DNA of 52,597 nt from NCBI RefSeq assembly GCF_000472285.1, contig NZ_KI421416.1, forward strand, positions 93,214-145,810, in the 5' to 3' direction. The number at the start of each line of letters is the position of its first letter. Positions within the stretch are counted from its first letter, which is position 1. Positions 23,784-25,749 of the stretch are shown here, one piece after another. The notes below the pieces were generated by a model, which was not told the origin of the DNA, made no database searches, and saw nothing but the letters and a program-made list of their open reading frames with translations. The position numbers and the translations under genes were made by a program. This stretch comes from Desulfuromonas sp. TF (GTDB lineage: Bacteria > Desulfobacterota > Desulfuromonadia > Desulfuromonadales > ATBO01).

Positions 23784-24074
23784 ATGAAACCCTCAGAAGC
23801 CCTCAAGGCGCATCGTGACGAAATCAGACGGCTTGTGGCGCAGTATCGGCTCCGCAACGCCCGGGTATTTGGGTCTGCCCTCCATGGCAAGGATACAGAC
23901 GGCAGCGACCTTGACATCCTGGTCGATCCGCTGCCCGGGACGACCCTGTTCGATCTGGGCGGCCTACAGATCGACCTGGAGGAAAGGTTGGGGGTTCCGG
24001 TCGAAGTGCTCACCCCCGGAGACCTGCCCACGAAATTTCGCGATCATGTGCTTAGGGAAGCGAAACCGATATGA
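23784..24074 (+). CDS. mntA: MntA-type nucleotidyltransferase antitoxin
   Basis: A 96-residue minimal nucleotidyltransferase. The catalytic signature GSx10DxD is exact: Gly30-Ser31 followed by Asp42 and Asp44 (GSALHGKDTDGSDLDILVD). In characterised MNT/HEPN modules the MntA protein inactivates the HEPN RNase by AMPylating it at a Tyr near its active site. The stop overlaps the start of the next gene by 4 bases (ATGA), the normal arrangement. Intact, unlike the upstream island genes. Confidence 0.92.
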   Translation: MKPSEALKAHRDEIRRLVAQYRLRNARVFGSALHGKDTDGSDLDILVDPLPGTTLFDLGGLQIDLEERLGVPVEVLTPGDLPTKFRDHVLREAKPI

Positions 24075-24430
24075 CAGCTAAACAACAAGGGTTGAGACTG
24101 TCCGATTACCTCCAACACATGGTCGAGGCCTCTTCGCTGGCCTGCGGTTACGTTGAAGATATGGATATTGAGGCGTTTCGGGATGACAAAAAAACTCAGC
24201 AGGCTGTGATTTTGAACCTCATGGTAATCGGTGAGGCTGCCACGCAGATCGCCAACGAGTATCCTGAGTTTGTGGCGGAACACCCGGAAGTCTTGTGGAA
24301 GCAGATTCGAGGGATGCGAAACCGAATGGCTCATGGTTACTTTGAAATCAACCTGGATATTGTTTGGGATACCGTTCGGGTTTCGATTCCGGCGATGAGG
24401 GCGAAGGTAGAAAAACTCTTGAAGAATTGA
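24071..24430 (+). CDS. hepT: HepT-type HEPN ribonuclease toxin
   Basis: A 119-residue HEPN-domain (DUF86) toxin. The catalytic RX4HxY motif is complete: Arg83, His88 and Tyr90 in GMRNRMAHGY; the Tyr is the site modified by MntA in studied pairs. The helix LNLMVIGEAATQIANEYPEF is typical. Translationally coupled to mntA. As a toxin it would cut RNA when not neutralised; the pair may act in defence or in stabilising the island. Confidence 0.92.
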   Translation: MTAKQQGLRLSDYLQHMVEASSLACGYVEDMDIEAFRDDKKTQQAVILNLMVIGEAATQIANEYPEFVAEHPEVLWKQIRGMRNRMAHGYFEINLDIVWDTVRVSIPAMRAKVEKLLKN

Positions 24431-24496
24431 GGCAAAAGCAGGAAAAGAGTTTGGAAACTTGTGCCGGAAGCACCTCGGTTATCCGCACTTTCCCCG

Positions 24497-24525
24497 TTGA
24501 CGAAAAAGGCCGGAACTGCTAGGTT
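24497..24525 (+). promoter_or_regulatory. Candidate promoter of the trpS leader
   Basis: TTGACG (24497-24502), 17 bases, then TAGGTT (24520-24525) with an extended TG at 24517-24518. The predicted transcript start (about 24532) would fall next to the leader ATG, implying a leaderless or very short 5' end; another promoter may exist further upstream. Confidence 0.4.
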
Positions 24526-24533
24526 ATCCCGCC

Positions 24534-24617
24534 ATGAGGAAGCTTTTATCCGACATTATAAAAAAACGCCACTGGTGGCGGTGGACCATGACCGGCCCGC
24601 GCGCCGCTTTTTGCTGA
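24534..24617 (+). CDS. Trp-rich leader peptide upstream of trpS
   Basis: A 27-codon reading frame with the central sequence KKRHWWRWTMTG: Trp codons at 24573-24575, 24576-24578 and 24582-24584, three in four positions. It ends at TGA 24615-24617, seven bases before a set of competing hairpins and a terminator, and trpS follows. This is the arrangement of a ribosome-mediated transcription attenuator sensing charged tRNA-Trp. Three TGG codons this close are very improbable by chance. The ribosome site is weak. The peptide itself is probably not functional as a protein. Confidence 0.8.
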   Translation: MRKLLSDIIKKRHWWRWTMTGPRAAFC

Positions 24618-24623
24618 AAACAC

Positions 24624-24678
24624 GCCGCGGAAATCCGCGGCAGGCAGCAGTAAAGCCGCGGCGACCCCGCGGTTTTTT
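24624..24678 (+). promoter_or_regulatory. Attenuator with competing CCGCGG hairpins and terminator
   Basis: Four CCGCGG-bearing segments: A 24624-24630, B 24635-24641, C 24655-24661, D 24667-24672. A pairs with B (7 bp, loop AAAT); C pairs with D and is followed by TTTTTT (24673-24678), an intrinsic terminator. B is also exactly complementary to C (7 bp), which would form an antiterminator and block C:D. The mutually exclusive pairings are what an attenuator needs. Where a stalled or finished ribosome would sit relative to A needs a folding model, so the direction of control is not proven. Confidence 0.75.
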
Positions 24679-24783
24679 CATTTGAAGTCAATTATCAGCC
24701 ACAGGATGCCTCAGCTTTCAAGGTGAAACCTGGGAGAACGCCACGGCCGATTATCGAGACCAGTTTACAAGACGAGGTTCAAA

Positions 24784-25749
24784 ATGCGCATTCTTTCCGG
24801 CATCCAGCCTTCCGGCTCCCTGCACCTGGGGAACTACTTCGGCATGATGAAAAAAATGATCGACTACCAGGAGAACGAGGATCTCTTCTGCTTCATCGCC
24901 AACTACCATGCCATGACTTCCCTCCTGGACGGCAAGTCCCTGGCGAGAGGGACGATCGAGGCGGCGGCGAACTTCCTGGCCCTGGGACTTGATCCGGAGA
25001 AGAGCACTTTCTGGGTGCAGTCCGACCTTCCCGAAGTGCAGGAACTGACCTGGTTCCTCTCCAATTTCACTCCGATGGGACTGCTTGAACGCTGCCACAG
25101 CTACAAGGACAAGGTCGCCCGGGGGATCGCCGCCAATCATGGCCTCTTCGCCTATCCCGTCCTGATGACCGCCGACATCCTGATGTTCCAGAGTGAAAAA
25201 GTGCCGGTCGGCAAGGATCAGAAACAGCACCTGGAGGTGGCCCGAGACATCGCCATCAAGGTGAACAACACCCACGGAGGGCTGTTCACTGTCCCTGAGC
25301 CGGAAATCGACGAGGAAGTGGCGACCGTCCCCGGTCTGGATGGGCAGAAAATGAGCAAGAGCTACGGCAACACCATCGACCTTTTCCTTGAGGAGAAGGC
25401 GCTGCGCAAGCAGGTGATGCGCATCGTTACCGATCCGACCCCGGTGGAAGACCCCAAGGACCCGGACAAGTGCAACGTCTTCCAGATCTACCGGCTGTTT
25501 CTGGACAAGGAGCGGGAGAACGCCATGCGCCAGCGCTATCTGGCCGGCGGCTTGGGGTACGGGGAGGTGAAGCAGGAACTGTTCGAAACGGTGCGGGACT
25601 TCTTCGCTCCCTATGCCGAGCGTCGCAGGGAACTGCTGGCCGACCCCGACGGCATCCGCGCCATATTGGCCCGGGGCGCCGAAAAGGCACGTTACACGGC
25701 AAATAAGACGATGCGCAAGGTCCGCAAAAAGGCGGGGCTTGCGTATTAG
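24784..25749 (+). CDS. trpS: Tryptophanyl-tRNA synthetase
   Basis: Class I aminoacyl-tRNA synthetase that charges tRNA-Trp, 321 residues, the usual bacterial length. The HIGH-type motif is PSGSLHLGNYFG at residues 8-19 and the KMSKS loop is QKMSKSYGN; other conserved parts are ISNYHAM-like FIANYHAM, PVLMTADIL and VGKDQKQHLEVARD. ATG 24784 has GAGG upstream. It is preceded by a Trp leader peptide and attenuator, so its expression is probably set by tRNA-Trp charging. Confidence 0.97.
   Translation: MRILSGIQPSGSLHLGNYFGMMKKMIDYQENEDLFCFIANYHAMTSLLDGKSLARGTIEAAANFLALGLDPEKSTFWVQSDLPEVQELTWFLSNFTPMGLLERCHSYKDKVARGIAANHGLFAYPVLMTADILMFQSEKVPVGKDQKQHLEVARDIAIKVNNTHGGLFTVPEPEIDEEVATVPGLDGQKMSKSYGNTIDLFLEEKALRKQVMRIVTDPTPVEDPKDPDKCNVFQIYRLFLDKERENAMRQRYLAGGLGYGEVKQELFETVRDFFAPYAERRRELLADPDGIRAILARGAEKARYTANKTMRKVRKKAGLAY

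Follow-up and report, generated by a model that had tools for sequence, protein, structure and literature searches.

A putative six-segment tryptophan leader attenuator upstream of trpS in Desulfuromonas sp. TF and related Desulfuromonadales

The region upstream of trpS in Desulfuromonas sp. TF is most probably a ribosome-mediated transcription attenuator (estimated probability about 0.87), which would set trpS expression by the supply of charged tRNA-Trp. The window, i.e. the whole stretch of DNA that was analysed, comprises 52,597 nt. We infer the transcription start site, ribosome stalling, termination and dependence on Trp from what is directly in hand: the sequence, its conservation, covariation of the pairings 0:1, 2:3 and 4:5 between RNA segments numbered 0 to 5, and fold predictions. 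A Trp leader peptide and attenuator in front of trpS had been proposed by the initial annotation and is still the best-supported reading, given the WW codons, the hairpins and the compensatory changes described below.

All features of the element are located on the forward strand. The promoter (24497–24525) consists of TTGACG (24497–24502), a 17 nt spacer and an extended -10 element, TAGGTT (24520–24525) with TGC just 5' of it. It was absent from the output of a generic promoter scan; its layout recurs before a leader in 36 of 110 related loci. After a further 8 nt follows the leader ATG at 24534, and transcription is predicted from the sequence to start at or within ~2 nt of it. The leader ORF (24534–24617, 27 aa plus stop, MRKLLSDIIKKRHWWRWTMTGPRAAFC) is probably leaderless, as suspected initially, and belongs to a set of conserved WWRW/WWWR leaders. 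Its Trp codons begin at 24573, 24576 and 24582, as had been annotated, and lie in TGG TGG CGG TGG (WWRW, 24573–24584), the core of segment 0. The short ORF with conserved tandem Trp codons expected of a leader-peptide attenuator is therefore present in the sequence, as is a predicted intrinsic terminator between the ORF and trpS.

Segment 0 (24574–24587) is formed by the Trp codons themselves. Its hairpin with the end of the leader, 0:1 (24574–24608), was found in the minimum free energy (MFE) fold of the full leader and in the consensus of 34 sequences. Segment 1 (~24594–24616) comprises the end of the leader with a conserved GGTYCGCGCG-type motif, and was defined from folds with the ribosome stalled at Trp. 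Segment 2 (24624–24630; sequence and folding) and segment 3 (24635–24641; folding, and included in the covariation count) form hairpin 2:3 (24624–24641). Segment 4 (24652–24661; terminator scan and folding) is the 5' arm of the terminator, and segment 5 (24667–24678; terminator scan and covariation) its 3' arm with the T6 tract. The terminator stem (24652–24676) has 10 pairs and leads into T6; the simple terminator scan is weak by itself, with 1.3 terminator-like sites expected per shuffled stretch of the same length. Four CCGCGG-type segments had been described, A (~24624–24630), B (24635–24641), C (24655–24661) and D (24667–24672). All four are present and correspond to segments 2 to 5, but the four-segment scheme is incomplete, since segments 0 and 1 belong to the switch too.

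The gene trpS (24784–25749, 321 aa) was assigned by Pfam tRNA-synt_1b (188.9 bits), with GAGG at 24774–24777 as probable ribosome site, and gave the single TrpS match in a search of the whole genome. A gene pair coding for an MNT-like nucleotidyltransferase and a HepT-like ribonuclease (Pfam; 23784–24430), a toxin-antitoxin arrangement, ends 66 nt before the leader promoter. In several relatives a short gene (~75 aa) is found in place of MNT-HepT, one copy of which (L015) gave no Pfam match. Rfam yielded no matches in the window at gathering threshold, the Trp leader family included. With relaxed settings, sub-threshold sRNA models alone were returned, the best being BSnc120 with 23.6 bits (E 0.0038) versus a gathering score of 114. 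A T-box was considered and rejected, with no T-box model match at either gathering or relaxed Rfam thresholds. No match to 24480–24800 was found in a plasmid collection.

For analysis of conservation, trpS upstream regions of the order were compared. TrpS was present in 120 of 136 genomes, and the upstream regions of 110 were taken into the analysis (L002 and L004 were dropped as duplicates of other loci). WW-containing ORFs of 10–45 aa were counted within the last 420 nt of the 105 upstream regions with at least 430 nt. They occurred in 36/105 regions on the sense strand versus 6/105 on the reverse strand, and dinucleotide shuffles (30 rounds) gave a mean of 1.8 and a maximum of 6. A W-containing leader with a start codon behind a TTGAC...TGnTAnnnT promoter was found in 36 of the 110 regions; L036 and L100, which are among these 36, have one Trp each. 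By the same promoter and W-leader rule, no leader was found in the remaining 74 of the 110. The distance from the -10 element to ATG was 7–10 nt in all 36 leaders (4–16 nt were allowed in the scan), and GAGG, AGGA or GGAG was located within 12 nt before the ATG in 1 of 36. Both results agree with a leaderless start. Leaders with at least two Trp codons were distributed over 11 of the 21 families of the order (f1, f4, f6–f11, f14, f18 and f19). When the leader peptide was used as protein query against 38 genomes, matches outside its own genome were all weak and one (G018) was truly located before trpS; such searches are of little use because the peptide is too short. The initial annotation had named conservation among related trpS upstream regions as a check. 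WW codons and hairpins are kept in part of the order, with compensatory changes.

Several loci appear to retain parts of the element. Seventy-three loci were outside the leader set, which comprised the 36 promoter-linked leaders and L034. Using a looser rule, a TTGAC-type promoter was detected in 27 of these 73; the only two flagged by rule as having a promoter joined to apparent terminator remains were L016 and L020. By eye, L046 and L075 were seen to lack Trp codons but to have, ~95 nt upstream of trpS, a promoter, a terminator-like hairpin and an ATG in leaderless position; judged from sequence, the sensor seems to be gone and the terminator retained. In L014 and L081 the promoter is kept and the leader altered (by eye). 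Altogether, six loci without intact leader were judged by eye to retain the promoter and apparent remains of the element. In L034, the leader is located ~270 nt upstream of trpS. Its WWRR codons are not in the same frame as the promoter-proximal ATG, next to an A run; this is either a sequence error or a decaying leader. L051 and L101 are variants with the promoter ~378 nt upstream and a weak match (36–41 bits) to the covariance model R1 (see below); L101 retains CWWR before a stop and L051 is devoid of Trp codons.

Pairing was analyzed with alignment A1, which contained 34 elements from the Trp codons through the T tract. It omitted L036 and L100, which have a single Trp each, and L034, whose leader frame is broken compared to its relatives. 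Alignment was poor for the Trp codons of L017 and for segments 2 and 3 in the f18 rows. TGGTGG was invariant or nearly so, and conserved blocks were present downstream of the Trp codons. RNAalifold on A1 recovered helices 0:1 and 4:5, whereas 2:3 was not recovered. Covariation was scored against shuffles which ignore kinship among the sequences. For helix 0:1, which was taken from the same alignment A1 used to score it, 91.7% of cells were paired versus 83.9% in shuffles, and both-sided changes occurred in 26 cells versus 10.9 (0/500 shuffles reached this value); pairs changed on both sides were not in excess (4 versus 3.1; 154/500). For 2:3 and 4:5 together, both-sided changes were found in 36 cells versus 13.1 in shuffles (0/500), and 9 pairs versus 6.1 were changed on both sides (11/500). 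Of the cells in 2:3 and 4:5, 71.3% and 96.0% were paired, respectively, and 5 of the 11 pairs of 4:5 were changed on both sides. Covariation of 1:2 plus 3:4 was weak: 79.6% of cells were paired versus 77.2% in shuffles, with 21 versus 13.2 both-sided cells (3/500), and pairs changed on both sides were as frequent as in shuffles (6 versus 6.0).

The proposed pairings form a chain of 0:1, 1:2, 2:3, 3:4 and 4:5. Compared to a his-type six-segment leader, 0:1, 2:3 and 4:5 are backed by covariation, while 1:2 and 3:4 were obtained from folding in a number of relatives and covary weakly. In the stalled state, the window sequence is instead predicted to prefer 1:4 around 2:3, with the antiterminator 5' arm at 24598–24616 pairing with a 3' arm at 24645–24663, which contains segment 4, around the hairpin 24624–24641. 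In a number of relatives the predicted alternative is 1:2 plus 3:4 (1:A plus B:C in the earlier lettering). An antiterminator of B:C alone, as first proposed, gives no account of control from the Trp codons, and segment 1 must pair with A or C. As segments 0 and 1 link the Trp codons to hairpin A, the gap of ~40 bases between them is explained. Because two segments are added to those of trpL, parity is kept: a stall at segment 0 would favour readthrough, and covering of segment 1 or absence of translation would favour termination. The view that the control logic differs from that of E. coli trpL can thus be dropped, since with segment 1 added the trpL/hisL logic holds after all.

The following mechanism is proposed. 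Transcription would begin at or beside the leader ATG, and translation of the leader would start on a leaderless mRNA. When charged tRNA-Trp runs low, the ribosome would stall on WWRW, cover segment 0 and leave segment 1 free. Free segment 1 would then pair with segment 4 around hairpin 2:3 (window) or, in a number of relatives, with segment 2, which would let segments 3 and 4 pair. Both routes would sequester the 5' arm of the terminator, and the polymerase would continue into trpS. With ample charged tRNA-Trp, the ribosome would reach the stop codon and cover segment 1. Hairpin 2:3 would form, and terminator 4:5 would stop transcription near 24678. Without any translation 0:1 would form, which would likewise result in termination.

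For folding with ribosome masks, the RNA of 36 elements was folded through the end of segment 4, beginning at the ribosome edge, which was set 12 nt past the codon; L034 alone was left out. Terminator arms of L001 and L083 were set by hand, since automatic picking was wrong for these 2 of 36. Mean pairing of the segment 4 core was 0.87 for a ribosome at the first Trp codon, compared to 0.65 for one at the stop and 0.69 with no ribosome. In 27 elements, a ribosome at the first Trp codon gave more sequestration of segment 4 (by >0.05) than one at the stop; 1 element gave less, and 8 showed no clear difference. Compared to no ribosome, the stalled state gave higher sequestration in 29/36 and lower sequestration in 2/36. 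Shuffling of the segment 1 region still gave a pairing of 0.78 (versus 0.87 observed and 0.65 at the stop), which indicates that the modelled effect is partly generic (length) and partly specific. The result depended on the assumed footprint. Right and wrong signs were counted as 22:3 at 8 nt, with similar or better ratios up to 16 nt, but as 15:10 at 6 nt and 10:19 at 3 nt, where the set was reversed. With the same procedure as for the trpS elements, E. coli trpL gave 0.62 (stalled), 0.01–0.03 (stop) and 0.30 (no ribosome), and hisL gave 0.61–0.62, 0.16–0.29 and 0.07, respectively.

The window element was the sole one of the 36 with wrong sign at offset 12 (stall 0.86, stop 0.96). Its sign was right at 9–11, marginal at 8 and wrong at offsets 12–16, since a ribosome positioned on the stop codon would extend over part of segment 2 as well. 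Imposing the ribosome on the fold, another check named initially, hence gave the expected direction in most elements but not, at these offsets, in the window itself. When the window element was folded at full length, the probability of the terminator was 0.03 with the ribosome stalled at Trp, 0.99 at stop+9, 0.77 at stop+12 and 0.98 with no ribosome. Full-length folding of the 36 elements favoured the terminator in every ribosome state in 34; L001 and L013 switched, L013 in the same way as the window element, and a partial shift was observed for L094 and L100. The full-length equilibrium of E. coli trpL and hisL likewise favours the terminator in every state. The 34 elements would therefore need kinetic control and act during transcription, as would E. 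coli trpL and hisL. The antiterminator of a leader-peptide attenuator was accordingly found in predicted folds, with a sign that varied with the assumed footprint.

The constitutive terminator of the upstream MNT-HepT genes, overlain by chance with a W-rich ORF, could in principle produce a similar arrangement, as HepT ends at 24430, not far upstream of the leader, and a terminator is present at 24652–24676. However, a promoter-like site sits between HepT and the leader ORF, and genomes that differ in the sequence upstream have conserved the W leader, the promoter spacing and the hairpins. This conservation speaks strongly against a chance ORF over an upstream terminator, which was rejected as extremely improbable.

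Two further explanations accept the leader and differ in its function. The terminated RNA (~145 nt) or the peptide might be the main product and act in trans like S. meliloti rnTrpL/peTrpL, with attenuation being secondary. The terminated trpS leader RNA would begin at the ATG like rnTrpL (PMC7298713), and the terminator is predicted to be strong. Leader peptides are, however, conserved in the W run and little elsewhere, and where the leader was lost the promoter before trpS has remained, in keeping with a role in cis; we consider a main function in trans quite improbable. A similarly small chance is given to a leaderless uORF that acts via general translation or starvation sensing, Rho access or reinitiation and not via its Trp codons. 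Such a uORF would suit L046 and L075, where promoter, ATG and terminator are kept without Trp codons, but no part of the peptide is conserved as well as the Trp codons, which pair with segment 1 with compensatory changes. Attenuation of trpS by Trp codons is hence the preferred reading.

Occurrence of the element elsewhere was analyzed with covariance model R1. Of the 136 genomes of the order, 39 had a listed R1 match of at least 50 bits, each time directly upstream of trpS and on the same strand; 34 of these genomes are the training rows of the model and 5 are outside it (G015, G099, G128, G132 and G133). Weaker listed matches (E ≤ 0.1) were found in 119/136 genomes, many of them hitting both strands of a single site, as expected of plain hairpins. 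Weak matches placed at trpS were those of G121 (40.7 bits), G035 (36.3 bits) and G032 (33.7 bits). In the genome of Desulfuromonas sp. TF, R1 scored 67.3 bits at trpS and 32.7 bits at the next listed match. Genes of the trpE type were present in 58 of 58 genomes of the order; loci were obtained for 30, of which 28 were parsed. No Trp leader was recognised at these 28 loci (3 with <250 nt upstream), nor at the trpE locus of the own genome. At trpE loci L279 and L289, W-containing short ORFs without the promoter layout were found.

At 54 trpS loci outside the order, drawn from the best 80 of 575, no WW ORF was present within 450 nt. R1 matches with E ≤ 0.01 extended to many genomes in other classes of the phylum (at least 142 of 395 in all). 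Of 28 R1-matched loci inspected outside the order, 18 had a Trp-rich short ORF at the match and 10 had none (L158, L160, L164, L166–L168, L172, L177, L180 and L182). By Pfam, anthranilate synthase component I was encoded downstream at L155, L156, L159, L163 and L165, and DAHP synthase at L157 and L174. Judged from sequence, eight more loci downstream of R1 matches look trpE-like and L170 looks TrpB-like; Pfam queries with 100 aa of L170 and L181 found no match. Trp-rich leader ORFs and terminators before anthranilate synthase and DAHP synthase genes were thus observed in other classes (L155–L181). At L164, an R1 match without Trp-rich ORF precedes the gene of a thiamine-pyrophosphate enzyme which reads like ilvB (acetolactate synthase); this element is possibly another amino-acid attenuator.

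Among the best 80 of 575 loci, TrpS was ~78–88% identical in loci named Desulfuromonadales, Desulfuromonas, Pelobacter, Geopsychrobacter and Deltaproteobacteria. TrpS of the order has 34–40% identity to TrpS in other families of its class and 60–69% identity to the best loci outside the order, e.g. of Desulfobulbaceae (best 80 of 575 loci). Since the latter value exceeds the former, the sequences suggest that trpS was replaced or transferred. One may speculate that Desulfuromonadales moved Trp attenuation from biosynthesis to charging, with a six-segment leader at the sole TrpRS gene and not at trpE, whereas other classes of the phylum have similar leaders before trpE or DAHP synthase genes. 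At plentiful Trp, the leaderless 145-nt RNA might in addition signal in trans to trp genes. We regard this combined scenario as rather unlikely.

If the attenuator functions as proposed, an essential TrpRS would be under direct feedback by its own product, charged tRNA-Trp, in many members of an order of environmental bacteria. It would also illustrate scaling of attenuators, in that two added segments let Trp codons act on a terminator 70–80 nt away with unchanged logic. Together with trpE and DAHP synthase leaders elsewhere in the phylum, trpS loci which seemingly lose the element could make gain, loss and target shift of attenuators traceable.

In E. coli trpL, the Trp-codon segment pairs with the next segment, as 0:1 does here; trpL has four segments, its own ribosome site for the leader and trpE as target. 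The trpS element resembles trpL in its tandem Trp codons and in its fold-test pattern, but has six predicted segments, is probably leaderless and would target trpS. Attenuation of Streptomyces trpRS1 has reportedly been studied by experiment. The enteric his leader forms AB, CD and EF for termination and BC and DE for readthrough (PMC10989985). The trpS element resembles the E. coli/Salmonella his leader (A–F) in its predicted six-segment chain and its fold-test pattern. It differs by having Trp codons, by its proposed control of trpS and by the window antiterminator, for which 1:4 enclosing 2:3 is predicted.

A Trp leader in control of trpS had been regarded as unusual by the initial annotation, but precedents exist. 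In Streptomyces, trpS attenuators were predicted, S. avermitilis trpS2 among them (PMC1262725), and a leaderless TrpL2 was reported before trpS of S. lividans (PMC8079986). As here, a Trp-containing leader peptide precedes the tryptophanyl-tRNA synthetase gene and, in S. lividans, is leaderless. TrpL2 of S. lividans contains a single Trp and lacks a U tract, in contrast to usually 2–3 Trp codons, a strong predicted terminator and six predicted segments here. A second Trp leader of S. lividans is located at trpE; at the 28 trpE loci of the order, none was recognised. For Caulobacter crescentus trpS mRNA, a putative small leader CDS was identified by ribosome profiling (PMC4117421); it is similar to the present leader in its position before trpS. 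In S. meliloti trpL/rnTrpL, the RNA begins at the ATG of the Trp leader, as predicted here, but it controls trpE(G) (PMC7298713). The trpE and DAHP synthase leaders of other classes share the R1 model, W-rich ORF, hairpins and T tract, and differ in target genes. In a partial search of the open literature, no trpS leader in Desulfuromonas, Pelobacter or Geobacter was found in titles and abstract openings; in the main texts of the Pelobacter carbinolicus genome paper (PMC3543383) and a wide premature-terminator screen (PMC2965389), the term 'trpS' was absent. The kind of control is thus already known, and the putative trpS attenuator of Desulfuromonadales appears to be new. It is of interest for combining Trp codons with a predicted six-segment form and for being located at trpS in this order.
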